Origin: a virus
Virus record (IMG/VR): IMGVR_UViG_3300050033_000347
Span: 1 to 32,457 of that record
Reading direction: 5' to 3' (one strand)
DNA length: 32,457 nucleotides
Shown: positions 17,687 to 32,457 of the stretch, piece after piece
Position numbering within the stretch: the first letter of the stretch is position 1
Layout: each line of letters starts with the position of its first letter
Position numbers and translations under genes: made by a program
Notes under the pieces: model-generated
Database searches by the model: none
What the model was told of the DNA's origin: nothing
Seen by the model: only the letters and a program-made list of their open reading frames with translations

Positions 17687-20308
17687 ATGCAGTACATAAC
17701 AAGAAATTTACCTTTAACGTTTCAGATAAAATTATCTAATGCTGAAATAAATCCATATAGTGGTACTTATAATTTTAATGTACGAAATGTGCAAACAAAT
17801 CAGCAAACAGTATTAACACTTGTTGATATTTCAACACTTAAAAACATATATTCAAAATTTACAATTGATAGTGGTACAACATTTGGTTTATTTACAGGAC
17901 AAAATGATGTTAGTATATATGATATTGTTTCTGGAAGTACTTTAATTGCTAAAGATCGTTGGGTGGTTACAGATACTGAAATTGATAATAATATATATTT
18001 CATGCAAAGTGATAACAATCCTGTTGTTTATGGTATATATACAGATGCTGTTCCTTTTACACCAATATTTACACTTACATTATTAACTTCTGGTGTAGAT
18101 GTATTAATAAAATTACAACAAGGTAGTCCAAATACTGAATCATTTGATATTTGGCGTAAAATTGGCACTGGTGGTACTTATATAAATATTGGAAATGATA
18201 TTACTTCTTTTGTTAGTTATGATAATATTCTTAATTATAACACTGAATATTTTTATAAAATTAGAGCAAAAAATACTGTAGGATATTCAAATTTTACAGC
18301 AGAACAAAGCATTAATACTGCTAATATAACTGGTGTTACGGGTAGCAGTTATTATACAAAGTCAGAAATTAACACATATACTGGACAAACAGCATTATTA
18401 CTTAATTCTAAGTTAAATTTAAATATTTTTACTGGTTATACAGGTACTACAGTAAATAAATCTAATTTTAATATATATACTGGCACAACAGCACCAAATA
18501 CATTTTTAAATAAAACTGCTTGTGCATGTGATAGTAAATTATTTAATGCTAAATCTTCATCATATTATCTTAATACAGGTAGTACGGCATTATGCGCAAC
18601 AACTGCTGGTAATGCTTTGGCATTGTGTGGATGTACTCCAAATTGTTTTTTAGGTATTAATGATTGTGCTGCTGATAGTGCTAAATTTAATAATCAATTA
18701 TCTACATATTATCTTAATACTGGTTCAACTGCTGTATGTGCAACCTGTGCAATTGGAGCAAAAAATCTTTGTGGTTGTGTACCAGCATCATTTCTTTTAT
18801 CAGGTGGTACTGCAATAAATAGTTTAAAATTGGGTGGTCAATTACCAGCTTATTATCTCAATACTGGTAGTACAATTACCTGTGCAGCAGATTCTGCTAA
18901 ATTAAATAATAAACTGCCAGTATATTATCTTAATACAGGTAGTACTGCTTTATGCGCAACCTGTTCAGTTGGTTCAAAGAGTCTTTGTGGTTGTGTACCT
19001 GCTTCATTTCTTTTATCAGGTGGTACTGCAATAAATAGTTTAAAATTGGGTGGTCAGTTACCTGCCTATTATCTTAATACAGGCAGTACAATTACCTGTG
19101 CAGCAGATTCTGCTAAATTAAATAATAAACTGCCAGTATATTATCTTAATACTGGTTCAACTGCTGTATGTGCAACCTGTGCAGTTGGTTCAAAGAGTCT
19201 TTGTGGTTGTGTACCTGCTTCATTCTTACTTAGTGGTGGAACAGCAGTAAATTCATTGAAATTAGGTGGTCAGTTACCTGCTTATTATCTTAATATTGGT
19301 AGTACTATTGGTATTGGTTGGTCAAATTTAACTAAGGGTTCAACAGTTGCTGGTTGTGGTACAATTGCAAGTGGTACATCTTGTAATAATACTTTTTATG
19401 GTGTTTGTGCTGGTGCTAAAATAGGATGTGGTGTTGGTAATATTGCTGTTGGTTATGAGGCACTTTATTGTAATATTAGTGGTTCTTATAATACTGCAAT
19501 TGGTTATTTAACACTTTATAATAATGCTTGTAGTTGGATAAGCTACTGTAAAGGTCAATATAATACTGCAATTGGTGGTACAGCACTTTTTTCTAATATT
19601 TGTGGTTGTAATAATACTGCAATTGGTTATTCTGCAGGTTATTGTAATCAGACTGGAAATACTAATGTTGCAATAGGATATAATGCTGGTTACTGTGAAA
19701 CTGGCTCAAATAAATTATATATTCATAATAGTGGTAGTGTTAACCCTTTAATTTATGGTGACTTCTCATTAAAATGTATTAAAATTAATGGTTGTTTAAA
19801 TGTAACTGGTTGCACGACATCAGTAAAATTTATTGAAGGTGGTACTTGTTTAGGAAGTACTTATTTGGGTTTAACATCTTGTGCTTGTGATTCAAAATGT
19901 TTAGGTACAAAACTACCGGCATATTATCTTAATACTGGAAGTACTGCATTATGTGCAACAAATTCTGCTTGTCTTGGTGGAGTATTACCAGCATTATACT
20001 TACTTACTGCTGCAAGTATTGTTGTTGTGACAGGAACAAGTCTCACATTATCTTATGCTACACATAATGCTAAGATAGTTGAATTGACAAATACAGGAGC
20101 AACAACTGTATGGCTTCCTACTGGAATGACAGCAAATTTTCAAGCAGATTTTACAAGTGTTAGTGCAAGTAATAAGACATTCTGTCAATGTACAGGTGCT
20201 TGTGTGAGAAGTCTTAGCAGTCACGTCATATTGACAGGTGCTTATAATATGGCAGCATTATATTTAAGATGTACAAATAATTATGTTTTGTCTGGTAATC
20301 TCTGTTAA
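17687..20308 (+). CDS. Cys-rich repetitive tail fibre / receptor-binding protein
   Basis: An 873-residue protein. Residues about 118-208 look like a fibronectin type III domain ('YFYKIRAKNTVGYSNFTAEQ'). From about 280 it carries repeats of the fibre type '...KLGGQLPAYYLNTGST...' (the L-G-G-x-x-P-x-x-Y-L pattern of T4 gp37-like fibres), including a 72-residue unit near-perfectly repeated (residues about 351-540). Residues about 580-675 have 'NTAIGY'-type repeats, like the head repeats of trimeric autotransporter adhesins. The C-terminus is a small beta domain. Roughly 45 Cys residues occur, all after about residue 275, which is exceptional for a fibre. It probably binds host surface structures as a trimer. 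It follows promoter-like element 6. Confidence 0.75.
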   Translation: MQYITRNLPLTFQIKLSNAEINPYSGTYNFNVRNVQTNQQTVLTLVDISTLKNIYSKFTIDSGTTFGLFTGQNDVSIYDIVSGSTLIAKDRWVVTDTEIDNNIYFMQSDNNPVVYGIYTDAVPFTPIFTLTLLTSGVDVLIKLQQGSPNTESFDIWRKIGTGGTYINIGNDITSFVSYDNILNYNTEYFYKIRAKNTVGYSNFTAEQSINTANITGVTGSSYYTKSEINTYTGQTALLLNSKLNLNIFTGYTGTTVNKSNFNIYTGTTAPNTFLNKTACACDSKLFNAKSSSYYLNTGSTALCATTAGNALALCGCTPNCFLGINDCAADSAKFNNQLSTYYLNTGSTAVCATCAIGAKNLCGCVPASFLLSGGTAINSLKLGGQLPAYYLNTGSTITCAADSAKLNNKLPVYYLNTGSTALCATCSVGSKSLCGCVPASFLLSGGTAINSLKLGGQLPAYYLNTGSTITCAADSAKLNNKLPVYYLNTGSTAVCATCAVGSKSLCGCVPASFLLSGGTAVNSLKLGGQLPAYYLNIGSTIGIGWSNLTKGSTVAGCGTIASGTSCNNTFYGVCAGAKIGCGVGNIAVGYEALYCNISGSYNTAIGYLTLYNNACSWISYCKGQYNTAIGGTALFSNICGCNNTAIGYSAGYCNQTGNTNVAIGYNAGYCETGSNKLYIHNSGSVNPLIYGDFSLKCIKINGCLNVTGCTTSVKFIEGGTCLGSTYLGLTSCACDSKCLGTKLPAYYLNTGSTALCATNSACLGGVLPALYLLTAASIVVVTGTSLTLSYATHNAKIVELTNTGATTVWLPTGMTANFQADFTSVSASNKTFCQCTGACVRSLSSHVILTGAYNMAALYLRCTNNYVLSGNLC
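18740..19310 (+). repeat. 216-bp tandem repeats in fibre gene
   Basis: Units start at 18740, 18956 and 19172, exactly 216 bp (72 codons) apart; the third is partial and more diverged near its end. Synonymous differences between copies show some age, but protein sequence is largely kept. Confidence 0.9.
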
Positions 20309-26281: not shown

Positions 26282-29200
26282 ATGAATAATTTTTCAAATC
26301 TTATATTACGTTTTAACAATGATATTTTACAAGATATTATACTTGATAAGGTTGAACTAAATATTCAGTTATCCGACATAAAGAATTTAGCACAATCCAA
26401 ATCATCTTTTTCTGTACCTTTTAATATTCCTTACACACCAAAAGCAGTAAGTATTTTAGGATGTTTATTTAATATTAATAATGCCACAACAATTACACAC
26501 AATCACATTGACGCACAACTTATACAAAACAACCATGTTATTATAAACGGTTATGTTTATGTTGATCATGTTGACACTAATTATATTTATGCAATAATTG
26601 CAACTGGTGAATTAACAATTTTTGAAGACATTCAAGGGTTAGTATTAAATAATCTTAATCTAACTGGTACAACATATAATAATAAAAATTTAATTGATTA
26701 TTATAGTAGTAATAATAGTTTCACATTTTCTGGTGATACTGGTAGTACACATCATTTTGTAAATGTGGATTGGTTCGGACAAGCAGGTAATTTAAATAAT
26801 TATAAGGGCACAAATGTCAATTCTTTACTCTCATTACGTAAACCTTCACCGATTATTAAGGTTAAAACAGTCTTTGATGCGATAATGACTGCAAATGGTT
26901 ATAGTTACAGTGGTAGTAGTGCGTTCATAAATAAACTCAATACTAAGTATATGAGTACAAACGTACCAATTACTAATTATTGTGCCAGTGCTGAAACAGT
27001 TATAGCCACAAACGGTAATTTAATATCTGGTTATATTAATGCACAATCAAATCATAATTTATATTTAAATCCTGTTGAGACTGTAAATAGTAAATATTTC
27101 AATATTGTCAGTACTCATACAAATATTGCTGTAAATGCTTTTAATCATGGTTTACGAGCTATTTATCCTTTTGTCGATGTTGGAGAGCCTTATACTTTTA
27201 ATTGTCGTTTATATGCTCATACAAGTGGTGCAAGTGGTAATGTTAAGTTCTATCTTCATAGAGCATATTATCTTGATAATTATTTTGATGCTGATTTCTC
27301 AAATGCAAATGAAATACTAATTGGTGAATTTACCGTACCAGATGTTACTAATACTCTTTATTATAGTACAAAAATAGTAATTCCAGACAATACTATGATT
27401 TCTGGTGAATATACTATTTCTGGTATAACTGATCATTGGTATGGTTATTATATAAGAGTAGAAAAAGATGCTGATATCGTACTTGATAATGGTAGTAGTA
27501 ATAGAATAACAATCACAAATTCTTGGCTTTATGATACTGGACACACATATACTTTAAATGATCTTTTATCAAATACTTATAAACAATACGATTTTCTTAA
27601 TGATGTTCTGACAGATTTTAATATTTATATTTATACTGATAATCAGAATAAGAAATTTTTGAATTTCAAAACTTATGATGACTTTAAATTAAATGATGTT
27701 CTGGACTGGTCAAAGAAATTCAGTCTTGAAGCACTTGAAGTTTATGACTTGCAACAACAATTATATCAGGAATATCAGTTAAAAAATGCAGATGGTAATG
27801 ATTTGATTAATACCTCATATAAAAATAGTTATAATAAAAGTATAAATCAACAGGATATTCTTAATGATGTACAAATTAATATAAAATCAATTAATAACAT
27901 TCAATTAACAATACCAGAAAATATATTAACAACAAATTTAGTTAAAAGCAATAGTACTAATTTACCTATTGCAAGTCCTTATACAGCAGAAAACGGACAA
28001 ATCATGTTTGGTTTTATTAATTATTTTAATTATGGTGAGAATATATTATTAACTTCATATCAATTAAACTCAGACTTATTAAATGATATATATGGTTACA
28101 TGCCGATATTATATAATTTAAATAGTTATCTGACTTTTTCACCTTTTCAAATCACAGGCAGTACAATTAATGATATATCTTCACCAAATACTTTTGCACT
28201 TCAATTCAATACACAAGATCAATATATTAATAAATATTCAGGTAATACTATTACAAACAATAATCTTTACAGTCAATTCTGGCAGAAAGAACTGGAAGAA
28301 AAAATATATGGTAATCAGAAATATGTACGAGCTAAAATGAAATTATTACCAGAAGACCTGAATATTCAAAATTTCAGAAAACGTATCTGGATTGATAATA
28401 GTAAACTTGGTGCTGCATATTATAGATTATTAAAAATAACATATCCTTCAGACCCGACAATATTAAGTGATGTTGAATTAATCTCAGATGTTAATTATAA
28501 CTCAGTAATACCAACCACGATAGCTTTAAATAAATTAACATATAATCCAATTAATCAAATTTCAAATTCAAGTTCAAATTCAAGTGGTTCTGGTGGTGGT
28601 GGTGGTGGAACAGGTACTCAGGGATCACAAGGTACAGGAATTCAAGGAGCAATGGGTATTCAAGGAGCAACAGGTACAGGAATTCAAGGAGCAATGGGTA
28701 TTCAAGGACCGTATTCACAGGGACCTGCAGGAGGCACAGGTCCGCAAGGAGCAACTACTCAAGGAGGCACAGGTCCGCAAGGAATAACAGGTGTTGCAAC
28801 ACAAGGTGCTGATGGTTCTCAAGGCGGATTTGGTGGTAATGGTCCTCAAGGTATAACTGGTTTGCAGGGTATTCAAGCAACAGGTAATCAAGGACCGACA
28901 GGACCGCAAGGACCTACTTCTCAAGGTGCTAATGGTCTTCAAGGTATTACTGGTGCTGGTCTTCAAGGTATTACTGGTGCTGGTATACAAGGAGCGACAG
29001 GTACTGGACTTCAAGGAATACAAGGTGGAAACGGAACAACAGGTATTCAAGGACCATCAGCTCAAGGACCTACTGGTCTTCAAGGTATTACTGGTGCTGG
29101 TCTTCAAGGTATTACTGGTGCTGGTATACAAGGAGCGACAGGTACACAAGGTTCTTATGGAATACAAGGTGGAAACGGACCGACAGGACCGCAAGGACCT

Positions 29201-29680
29201 ACTTCTCAAGGTGCTAATGGTCTTCAAGGTATTACTGGTGCAGGATTACAAGGTATACAAGGTCATACTGGAACAGGTACACAAGGTTCTTATGGAATAC
29301 AAGGTATTCAAGGACCTGCATTTACTCAAGGAGGTGTGGGACCACAGGGTGCTACAGGAGCAGGTACACAAGGTTCTTATGGAATACAAGGTATTCAAGG
29401 TATACAAGGTACAACTGGTACACAAGGTTCAGATTTAAGATTAAAAACAAACTTACAAACAATATCATTAGCACCTTTAAATATAGAATATAAGAACTAT
29501 GAATTCAAAGAATGGAGAGGAGAAACTCGTGCAGGTGTAATTGCACAAGAAATTATAGATGAATATCCAGAATTTGTTAAAATGGGTGAAGATGGTTTTT
29601 ATTATGTAGTATATCAAGATATATTCATACGTGAAATCGCATCATTAAAAGAAAGAGTTAAAGAATTAGAAAATAAATAA
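26282..29680 (+). CDS. Baseplate hub/Tal-like protein with collagen-like stalk and S74 chaperone
   Basis: A 1132-residue protein. Residues 1-~770 are beta-rich and hub-like ('[20 protein letters not shown]', '[15 protein letters not shown]'), as in Tal-type baseplate proteins. Residues about 770-1048 are a collagen-like Gly-x-Y region, in which Gln, Ile, Ala and Thr are common ('GPQG', 'GTGIQGA'). From Ser1050-Asp1051 follows the peptidase S74/intramolecular chaperone domain: 'SDLRLKTN', '[10 protein letters not shown]', '[18 protein letters not shown]' and the closing coiled coil '[14 protein letters not shown]'. S74 domains drive trimerisation of the stalk and are cut off at the Ser-Asp start. 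The Gly-Ser-Asp junction fits. The hub therefore carries its own fibre, likely a trimeric host-binding appendage. Confidence 0.8.
28593..29428 (+). repeat. Collagen-like coding repeats with long direct repeats
   Basis: The DNA is made of short GGT/GGA-CAA-type units. Longer exact copies exist, for instance a 65-base direct repeat at 28892-28956 and 29177-29241, and other shared segments around 28940-29010 and 29085-29150. Recombination between them could alter stalk length in frame. Confidence 0.85.
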
Positions 29681-29710: not shown

Positions 29711-29920
29711 ATGAAAGCAATTCAAACACCAACAAATCCTGTAGTAATAATTACTCCAGTACAAGGAGCACAGGGTGCTCAAGATGTAACACCGATAGTA
29801 ATACCATCACCAATACCACAACCAATAGTTGTGTCAAAAAAGAAAATAAATCCTTATTTGATATTAGGAATTATTGTAGTTATTGTAATAGTGGTTGTAA
29901 TTATATTGGTTTTAATTTAA
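29711..29920 (+). CDS. Small tail-anchored membrane protein, 69 residues
   Basis: The N-terminal ~40 residues are Pro/Val/Gln-rich ('QGAQGAQ', 'IPSPIPQPIV'), then a basic Lys-Lys-Lys and a hydrophobic helix at about 49-69 ('LILGIIVVIVIVVVIILVLI') with no residues after it. This is a C-terminal tail-anchor layout. It may be a holin-like or regulatory membrane protein. Its stop codon lies within an A/T palindrome that also holds the stop of the convergent gene on the other strand. Confidence 0.6.
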   Translation: MKAIQTPTNPVVIITPVQGAQGAQDVTPIVIPSPIPQPIVVSKKKINPYLILGIIVVIVIVVVIILVLI

Positions 29921-29932
29921 AAATATTTTTAA
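29917..29932. terminator. A/T palindrome between convergent genes
   Basis: TTAAAAATATTTTTAA is a perfect 16-base palindrome. The + strand stop (29918-29920) and the - strand stop (29929-29931) both lie in it, with only 8 bases between them. It may act as a weak bidirectional terminator; no G/C stem is present. Confidence 0.4.
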
Positions 29933-30549
29933 CTTAATCTTTGTAAATTGTTTTTTACAGCATTTTTATAAAGAATATTTATGTCTTGATATTTATCAAG
30001 CATTTTAAATATTTTTATACTCTCTTCTTGAAGTCCAATCCACCATGCAGCAATTGCTCTTTCAAAAACAAATACATAATTACCAACATATTCTACATCA
30101 GTAATTAAAAGTAAATGATCAAAACTACCGTATGTACCTATATTATTATTTATTTCTAATCCTTTTATTTTATCATCATCATAAGTTATACCAGTTAATT
30201 GTTCTCCTATTCTCGCCCATGCATAAGATTCATGCCATTCTTTACATTGTTCATAGAGACGACATAATAAAAATATTGCTTCTGGACGTTCAGGCATAAA
30301 TGATATTGCTCTTAATAAAATACCTTTTGAAACATAAGTTCGTTCTCCTTGATGTACCAGACATAAAAATAATCTTATTAATGATTCATAAATTAATAGT
30401 TTATCTTCACCAAATTCTGCTGATCTTAAATAAAATGAACAAGCAGCACTTAATTGTTCCAATTCTTCATACTGTTTGCCTACTCTGAAATTGTTAATCT
30501 GATTTTTAGGCTCTTGTATATATTCGTTTAATGATTTTTCTAAATTCAT
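29929..30549 (-). CDS. TPR-like protein (GT-associated type)
   Basis: A 206-residue, helical-repeat protein. Residues about 20-115 give a regular helix-turn-helix pattern ('QYEELEQLSAACSFYLRSAE', 'ILLRAISFMPERPEAIFLLC', 'WHESYAWARIG'), including the Arg-Pro-Glu-Ala turn often seen in TPR-type segments attached to viral glycosyltransferases. Residues 145-206 ('FVFERAIAAWWIGLQEES') resemble the end of that type of segment. It probably binds protein or stabilises a glycan enzyme. It lies 15 bases downstream of the GH130-like/radical-SAM gene on the same strand, so they likely share a transcript. Precise function unknown. Confidence 0.6.
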   Translation of the reverse strand: MNLEKSLNEYIQEPKNQINNFRVGKQYEELEQLSAACSFYLRSAEFGEDKLLIYESLIRLFLCLVHQGERTYVSKGILLRAISFMPERPEAIFLLCRLYEQCKEWHESYAWARIGEQLTGITYDDDKIKGLEINNNIGTYGSFDHLLLITDVEYVGNYVFVFERAIAAWWIGLQEESIKIFKMLDKYQDINILYKNAVKNNLQRLS

Positions 30550-30564
30550 AATATAATGATTTTA

Positions 30565-32457
30565 TTATACTGTTTTTATTATTTTATTATTTTCTATTTT
30601 TTTACCATTTTCACAATATCTGCATAATTCAAATGATGTTCCGACTACAGGTATTAAATCTTTGTATTCTTGAGTAAATAAATTACCTAAAATATGTTTC
30701 AATTCGTAATCTTGACAACATATAGTCATATCACCGTTTGGAAGCATTACTGTATGTTTGAATTTTTCTAATGCAAAGTTTGCAAACTTATCTGGACTAC
30801 TACAAGTACAAGGTGCGCCATTATCAGTACTTATATATTTATCCTTTAAGTCCAGAAGTTCGGGTTTTAATAATGCTTCTTTTTCAAGATTTCCTGCTCT
30901 TGAATACATTTGTAAATTTTGTCCAACATTACTAAAAATATGTTTTACTTTATCGTGAGGAGTACCCATACACATTACCCTAAAGTTTGATATTTCATTA
31001 CTAACTTTTTGAAGATATTCAAGAGTTTCAATATATTTATCAGTAATTGGGTGTTTAGAATATCCTTCTTGGTCTGGTAAATGTAATGTAAATCCACGTT
31101 GACTACCATTAGCAAATGGAATGTTTTTAATTCTATCAATATCATTTATTGACATTCCAACTCCTGTAGTAAATAGAGTGACTTTATGTTTCTTTTCATT
31201 TGCATATATTATCATATTTGTACAATTCTTATTAAGAAATGGTTCTGCAAATCCTGCAAAGACAATACCTATTTCTTCATCTAATTTATCTACAACTAAT
31301 TTAAAATTATCAAGTGATAGTATTTTATCTTTTGAAGAATACATCGATGAAATTAATTTCTGTGGACAAAATACACAATTAACAATACATCCTGCAAAAG
31401 GCATTGCCGTAGTTATCTCAAGAGTAGGATAAATTACTTCATCTATTACACATTTTGTCTCAACTATTTTTTCTTCTTCTTTTATGATTTTATCATTAAG
31501 TCCTATGATATCATCAATAATATCTTTAGGAATTCGGAGCATAAATGCTGCGTTATCCTGAAAACCAAATGTAATTAGTAGATCACCTTTAAATAAACAC
31601 ATCCCACAAGCAAACTCAATCTCTGCATCCATAAACGAAAATCTCTCAGATATGTGTATTAAATTCCAGTTTATATCCCATATCACAAAATAATGCATGT
31701 ACGTAGCATCTTTTTGTCCTTGATAATTCTTTTTTAAGTCAACATCATGAACAATAGCAATTCTATAATCTTTATATCTTATGACTTGACTACCACCTCT
31801 CAAATCCATTAAATTTGGTACTTTATGATTATTCTGTGACACTACAGATGATGTACTATTAATTATATCAGCAAATACTATTTCTGTCGGATTAACCCAC
31901 TTTACATAATGAAACGGTATATCTTCTATAGGCATCCAATTCTTTTCACAATAACTATTTTTATCGGTGGGATGTTCTATTCTAATTCTTGTACGTTCTT
32001 TTGCGAAAGTTGAATTAATAAGTATTTCAGAAAGTTCCATTCTACCTTGACCATTATCAGTTGTATCTCTACGAACTCCTGTCAAATATGTTTTATCATT
32101 CCATGTAATAAGACGAGCATCTTCAAGACCGTGAAATTCCCACTTTGGATTTTTTACATCCAATTTTGAAGTGTCTACTTTTAATACTTTTTTAATAGAC
32201 AGATCATTTTTCATTTCACATAAAAAATTAATAGTTTTTAAATGAATATCATTTTCAGGATTTAAATATGCAAGAGGACCATATCGACTATTATATTGCT
32301 GTTTATTTTCACTATGATAAAGAGTATAATTTATGTTTCTTATGTTTATATATAACTTATCATTAATAACAGCAACGGTAGGATTCATCAGTCCTAATCC
32401 TTTAGATAGATTAGAAGGAATAATAAGAGGAATTAAATTACCTCTCTTTTCAATTAT
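30565..32457 (-). CDS. GH130-like beta-propeller fused to radical SAM/SPASM domain (5' end outside window)
   Basis: An internal ATG at 32388 gives 607 residues, but the frame stays open to the window edge ('...SNLSKGLGLMNPTVAVIND'), so the gene starts beyond 32457. Residues below are numbered from that ATG. The first ~295 residues follow GH130-type five-bladed propellers: 'FHGLEDARLITW' (87-96), 'EKNWMPI', 'DLRGGSQVI', 'EIEFACGMCLFKGDLLITFG' and 'FQDNAAF'. GH130 enzymes act on beta-mannosides. Residues ~320-607 carry a radical SAM cluster, Cys334-x3-Cys338-x2-Cys341, then 'VFAGFAEPF' (a GGEP-like motif). The C-terminal part has 'MLPNGDMTICCQDYELKHIL' and 'GNLF', plus Cys589-x-x-Cys592, a SPASM/twitch-type auxiliary cluster. 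No frameshift separates the halves. The true substrate is unknown. Confidence 0.78.
   Translation of the reverse strand: MIEKRGNLIPLIIPSNLSKGLGLMNPTVAVINDKLYINIRNINYTLYHSENKQQYNSRYGPLAYLNPENDIHLKTINFLCEMKNDLSIKKVLKVDTSKLDVKNPKWEFHGLEDARLITWNDKTYLTGVRRDTTDNGQGRMELSEILINSTFAKERTRIRIEHPTDKNSYCEKNWMPIEDIPFHYVKWVNPTEIVFADIINSTSSVVSQNNHKVPNLMDLRGGSQVIRYKDYRIAIVHDVDLKKNYQGQKDATYMHYFVIWDINWNLIHISERFSFMDAEIEFACGMCLFKGDLLITFGFQDNAAFMLRIPKDIIDDIIGLNDKIIKEEEKIVETKCVIDEVIYPTLEITTAMPFAGCIVNCVFCPQKLISSMYSSKDKILSLDNFKLVVDKLDEEIGIVFAGFAEPFLNKNCTNMIIYANEKKHKVTLFTTGVGMSINDIDRIKNIPFANGSQRGFTLHLPDQEGYSKHPITDKYIETLEYLQKVSNEISNFRVMCMGTPHDKVKHIFSNVGQNLQMYSRAGNLEKEALLKPELLDLKDKYISTDNGAPCTCSSPDKFANFALEKFKHTVMLPNGDMTICCQDYELKHILGNLFTQEYKDLIPVVGTSFELCRYCENGKKIENNKIIKTV

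Follow-up and report, generated by a model that had tools for sequence, protein, structure and literature searches.

The window analysed here spans an entire IMG/VR record (32,457 bases) and ends in a large gene on the minus strand (30565..32457), the product of which joins a GH130/GT108-like propeller to a twitch radical SAM enzyme. The reading frame is open from 32457 to a stop at 30565 and encodes 630 amino acids; no stop lies within it, which confirms the preliminary description of this DNA as containing a single continuous frame across the two domains. Homologous direct fusions of full length (L002-L008, 608-642 amino acids, 47-50% identity), which that description had proposed to look for, were found in IMG/VR, on six or more further contigs, and since this direct fusion recurs on independent contigs, a frameshift or assembly artefact can be ruled out. 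As the window is the whole record, the gene cannot be extended past 32457; judged by the full-length fusions, about eight N-terminal residues are missing from the protein, so that the truncation suspected earlier is real and small. In the AlphaFold model of the fusion protein (mean pLDDT 86.5), the two domains are separated by a disordered linker with pLDDT < 50 (residues 325-341; 31435..31485, minus strand). The motifs quoted earlier, GLEDAR (residues 110-115), RGGSQVI (220-226) and FQDNAAF (299-305), are all found in the protein. The same holds for the quoted cysteines, the numbers of which shift by 23 once the partial N-terminus is counted: 334/338/341, 527/529, 557/558 and 589/592 become 357/361/364, 550/552, 580/581 and 612/615, respectively, and, C550 apart, every one of them is invariant across 47 relatives. 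A search of PHROGs with the fusion protein returned no family. By its terminase and portal, the window phage is closest to phages of Flavobacteriia (22-29% identity); therefore, a Bacteroidota host is likely, and not certain.

On the same strand, starting 15 nt past the stop of the fusion gene, lies a gene encoding a TPR-like protein (29929..30549), homologues of which (35-47% identity) are located directly after, or fused to, the propeller, the radical SAM domain or an FkbM methyltransferase in dozens of loci. Convergent with these genes is a plus-strand gene (26282..29680) encoding a collagen-like tail fibre, the proposed substrate, which has a Pfam Peptidase_S74 chaperone domain and PHROG tail fibre matches, and in which an interrupted Gly-X-Y region spans 28592..29446. 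The phage setting next to fibre genes, as claimed earlier, is borne out by this fibre. Between the fibre and the cassette lies a small plus-strand ORF (29711..29920), whose 69-residue translation contains a stretch rich in proline and valine and, C-terminally, a hydrophobic helix, and looks membrane-anchored; its membership in the cassette is uncertain. The "Cys-rich fibre" of the preliminary description is probably the product of 17687-20308, a protein of 873 amino acids that matches tail spike/fibre and virion-protein PHROGs and contains 46 Cys, an unusual count for a phage structural protein.

The propeller domain (residues 1-324; 31486..32457, minus strand) is modelled as the five-bladed beta-propeller of GH130, and VIA-align superimposes it on RaMP1 (5ay9) with a Z of 23.3 over 278 aligned residues (rmsd 3.3); about 13% of the structurally aligned positions are identical. 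Teth514_1788 matches model residues 1-323 nearly as well (Z 23.2), and GT108 mannosyltransferases match with a Z of 17-18. At the sequence level, the window protein has no match to Pfam Glyco_hydro_130, to which relatives L025 and L031 match weakly and of which only the distant relative L100 passes the cut-off. GH130 structures were likewise absent from the PDB sequence matches of a profile of 49 phage propellers, and hhalign of the phage propellers alone against GH130 gave a probability of 4%, as opposed to 95 (E 3.7e-8) with a bridging profile to which distant genome-contig relatives had been added. The earlier GH130 assignment thus fails with Pfam and with phage-only profiles, and holds with the bridging profile and in the fold. 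The L100 gene itself (L100:6829-8994), on an Ignavibacteriae genome contig, encodes two tandem propellers in one protein and ties the phage family to Pfam GH130.

Several active-site residues of GH130 have conserved counterparts in the phage propellers. The GLEDAR motif (32113..32130, minus strand) aligns to the GxEDxR motif of GH130 and contains the candidate general acid D113; E112, D113 and R115 are kept in 49 of 49 relatives from phages and in 19-20 of 21 from genome contigs. D301 of FQDNAAF (31555..31557, minus strand), conserved in 48/49 and 21/21 of these sets, shares an hhalign column with BT3780 D363, and the D363A variant of BT3780 is inactive (PMC4599007). In all, the functionally important residues N74, R89, E141, D142 and D363 of BT3780 (PMC4599007) correspond to the conserved N25, R40, E112, D113 and D301, covering the general acid and the -1 subsite, with E112, D113 and D301 placed by hhalign, and N25 and R40 by motif and spacing. 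The basic residues R130, R139, K172, R220 and H237 are also invariant in the propellers, their register relative to the three basic phosphate or donor contacts of GH130/GT108, in place of which GH130 hydrolases have two Glu, being uncertain. From its fusion partners and neighbours (FkbM methyltransferase, GT25, GT2 and TPR proteins), we infer that the propeller is used for synthesis; the distant relative L095, a fusion of the propeller with a GT2 glycosyltransferase and TPRs, points the same way. One phage carries, besides an intact propeller, a second, diverged one (L054:8302-9879) that lacks part of the N-terminal region and is fused to FkbM. In addition, BFVD fold matches to the fusion model include Pithovirus, Solivirus, Satyrvirus and Indivirus proteins, some of which carry fucosyltransferase, pyruvyltransferase or LicD domain annotations, so a related propeller may build glycans in giant viruses too.

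The second domain (residues 341-618) exceeds the cut-off of Pfam Radical_SAM (31.5 bits vs 29.5), and its core CX3CX2C motif (residues 357-364; 31366..31389, minus strand) is present in 47 of 47 relatives. The SPASM-like cysteines of the preliminary description, on the other hand, do not form a full SPASM domain: the seven-cysteine motif with CX2CX5CX3C is found in 0 of 47 members, and the window protein scores 19.9 bits against Pfam SPASM, below the cut-off of 21.5 that several relatives exceed. Apart from C550, they instead follow the auxiliary-cluster cysteine pattern of a twitch domain, or half-SPASM (C552, C580/C581, C612 and C615; 30613..30804, minus strand), since the gapped pattern CX9-15GX4C, gap, CX2C occurs in 47/47 relatives and the strict CX9-15GX4C in 46/47, the window protein having a longer insert than the strict form allows. 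BtrN is both the closest PDB sequence (4.6e-4) and the best fold match (Z 16.9) to a separate model of the domain (pTM 0.86), followed by DesII (Z 14.2) and then by SuiB, ChlB, EpeE, SkfB and anSME (Z ~13-14). The earlier remark that radical SAM/SPASM enzymes usually modify peptides or sulfatases needs adjusting here, the nearest folds being led by sugar/cyclitol enzymes with the peptide modifiers behind. As BtrN acts on a cyclitol and DesII on a sugar nucleotide, it is plausible from the modelled fold that the phage domain has a sugar as its substrate. A prokaryotic viperin (pVip), with an anti-phage role, was rejected as an identity for this domain, as only 88 core residues match (20 bits) and the auxiliary-cluster cysteines, which viperins lack, are invariant.

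The fusion gene is one arrangement of a mobile, widespread modular cassette, and not a lone case, real as the fusion is. In 129 distinct viral loci, four modules, namely the propeller (P), the TPR-like protein (T), the radical SAM domain (R) and the FkbM methyltransferase (M), recur in reshuffled combinations, either separate or fused, with single ORFs encoding P, T, R, TMR, PT, PR, PMR, TR, TM or RM; P is also fused to, or adjoins, GT25 and GT2. The module sets are PTMR in 45 loci, PT in 41, PTR in 25 and others in 18, and P and T, the latter represented in the window by 29929-30549, a gene that the preliminary description had left out, occur together in 114 of the 129. The gene family is abundant among environmental phages, a single scan giving at least 600 matches, and P, T and R were all absent from 359 random viral loci (3.1 Mb). 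P also had 0 matches in 86 random records, a search in which the positive control was detected in the second of two runs. The cassette was not described in the literature retrieved by searches on phage radical SAM-FkbM-fibre genes, phage GH130 and viral collagen O-glycosylation. P-T pairs are also present in three contigs binned as bacteria (L086, L088 and L091), which look like phage contigs binned with bacteria; in L086, collagen-like genes adjoin the pair. A 2OG-Fe(II) oxygenase gene is located near the cassette in 12 loci (e.g. L119:2299-2880); aquatic phages often carry such oxygenases, and by analogy with collagen hydroxylation elsewhere, this one could act on the fibre.

The cassette is associated with collagen-like fibres well beyond the window. 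In L002-L005 the gene order is fibre, a gap of ~30-70 nt, P-R and an abutting or overlapping T, and a same-strand fibre lies immediately upstream of the cassette in 30 of 106 loci, vs 12 when genes are picked at random from these loci. Pfam collagen matches were found in 38/46 carrier records vs 11/87 random IMG/VR records (Fisher 1e-15), both sets being restricted to records of at least 25 kb and the random one being drawn by arbitrary 14-mers, not host-matched. The eight carrier records without a collagen gene are possibly fragments. Similarly, S74 is encoded by 27/50 carrier vs 4/37 random records, and in 15 of these 27 it is located within 3 kb of the cassette, vs 4.8 expected at random positions. 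These counts are to be read with the carriers' relatedness to one another in mind, some records being near-duplicates. The Actinomycetia phage DSL-LC01, which has a distant propeller (28%), has no annotated fibre within 8 kb, and the link to fibres is therefore not claimed for that branch.

The Gly-X-Y repeats of carrier fibres are themselves altered. Where eight or more triplets follow one another, Thr occupies the X position with a median frequency of 0.35 in 51 carrier loci vs 0.03 (range 0.02-0.12) in 14 controls (p 5.5e-8); two of these control entries come from identical or overlapping records that entered the set by separate routes, so that the independent controls are slightly fewer than 14. 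Pro at X changes in the opposite direction (0.02 in carriers vs 0.19 in controls), and Thr at Y, which does not differ between the two sets (p 0.19), was rejected as a marker. The excess of Thr at X is retained when fibres are clustered by their non-repeat parts (0.13-0.65 across the clusters). Base composition was rejected as its cause, as controls at 33-43% GC do not exceed 0.12 and the values peak in carriers above 42% GC. In the isolated cyanophage DSL-LC02, P adjoins a TPR-FkbM-radical SAM protein, and the fibre beside this cassette consists of GTQ, GTT, GAQ and GAT triplets with 0.71 Thr at X. The signature is weak in the window fibre 26282-29680, in which Thr occurs in 6 of 55 triplets at X (0.11) and in 15 of 55 at Y. 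Since the carriers are related and the controls few, the signature could have been inherited with the fibre lineage.

That the cassette travels with Thr-rich collagen-like fibres suggests that these phages attach unusual sugars to their own fibres. We propose, at about an even chance of being right, that this phage-encoded cassette assembles a modified glycan, carried by threonines of the collagen-like tail fibres. The propeller would act as an inverting GH130/GT108-like glycosyltransferase or phosphorylase, forming a probably beta-mannosyl-like bond; the BtrN/DesII-like twitch radical SAM domain would then oxidise or rearrange the sugar, which in FkbM-bearing loci would also be O-methylated; and the TPR-like partner may serve as a scaffold binding the enzymes or the protein substrate. 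The genome association and the repeat composition point to an O-glycan on Thr of the fibre as the product; such a glycan would shield the receptor-binding fibre, modulate it, or lend stability to a triple helix poor in proline. Speaking against the proposal are the weak Thr signature and convergent orientation of the window fibre, and the carriers in which no collagen gene was seen. A more specific version of this proposal, which we advance tentatively, is a dedicated tailed-phage pathway of collagen glycosylation, in which the propeller transferase and the twitch radical SAM enzyme, sometimes with O-methyltransferases, would place a radical-edited sugar on X-position Thr of proline-poor Gly-Thr-Gln/Gly-Thr-Thr fibres, the glycosylated Thr replacing proline/hydroxyproline in stabilising the helix. 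Threonine glycosylation has been named as a mechanism that stabilises collagen (PMC3368898). The broader role suggested earlier, modification of glycans or of the virion, we judge to be probably right.

The main rival to fibre glycosylation, which we consider rather unlikely, is that the cassette modifies a host surface glycan (O-antigen, capsule or glycoprotein), either against superinfection or to alter receptors, the adjacency to fibres reflecting a shared host-recognition island. Such a role has been published for glycosyltransferases in the fibre islands of pelagimyophages, where radical SAM cassettes also occur (PMC7029224), and FkbM, GT25 and GT2 are common in the synthesis of surface glycans. 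However, a host glycan as the target predicts neither altered collagen repeats nor a strong co-occurrence with collagen, and among the neighbour families, surveyed through representatives of recurrent clusters, there is no nucleotide-sugar pathway, flippase or membrane transferase. It explains the island and not the repeats; glycosylation of the fibre is the simplest reading that covers all the observations. It is improbable that peptides of the fibre or the host are direct substrates of the radical SAM domain (through epimerisation, cross-linking or oxidation, as in RiPPs), the propeller then serving for binding or having an activity of its own; the close Z values of the peptide modifiers and the placement of anSME near the top by Foldseek agree with this, but BtrN and DesII lead the fold list, the propeller retains GH130-type active-site residues and is fused to FkbM and GT25, and neither a precursor peptide nor an RRE-like peptide-binding domain appeared in the models and neighbour searches. 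An auxiliary metabolic role, in which the propeller, given its GH130 phosphorylase fold, would be a catabolic mannoside phosphorylase feeding host sugar metabolism, is very improbable, as its partners are TPR, FkbM, radical SAM and GT domains, virion genes adjoin it and no catabolic neighbours were seen.

If glycosylation of the fibre proves true, a gene family abundant among environmental phages would gain a function where, as far as we have seen, none is established; tailed phages would join the systems in which collagen-like proteins are glycosylated, and the known means of virion modification would come to include a GH130/GT108-like propeller and a radical SAM enzyme. As the decorated part would be the tail fibre, there would also be a bearing on host range. 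The proposal predicts modified Thr in the GTQ/GTT repeats of the isolated cyanophage fibre.

Compared with known systems, the propeller shares with the GH130 enzymes RaMP1, Teth514_1788 and BT3780 the five-bladed fold across the whole domain (Z 21-23), as well as the pattern of the GxED general-acid motif and the other -1 subsite residues, but differs in its low identity, in having no Pfam match and in being fused to radical SAM, FkbM, GT25 or TPR modules. The Leishmania GT108 enzymes MPT-1, MPT-2 and MPT-4 have the same fold and set a precedent for a GH130-type propeller in synthesis (PMC8950772), whereas their Z is lower than that of GH130, and they build eukaryotic storage mannan, from GDP-mannose or mannose-1-phosphate, and have no radical SAM partner. 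BtrN, the twitch radical SAM dehydrogenase of butirosin synthesis, which carries out a two-electron alcohol oxidation, is alike in fold, sequence match and half-SPASM cysteine pattern; it is, however, a stand-alone antibiotic enzyme with 17% identity to the phage domain. Pelagimyophage host-recognition islands, likened here by description, also place radical SAM genes and glycosyltransferases beside the tail fibres of aquatic phages, but are read as modifying the host O-chain, and the portion of the source drawn on describes neither these domains nor a collagen link (PMC7029224). A functional parallel by description is mimivirus L230, which glucosylates viral collagen (PMC4691112): a virus enzyme thereby modifies the virus's own collagen-like proteins, as is proposed for the phage cassette, although L230 is described as combining glucosyltransferase and hydroxylase domains and acting on hydroxylysine (PMC4691112), whereas the phage cassette would decorate threonine.
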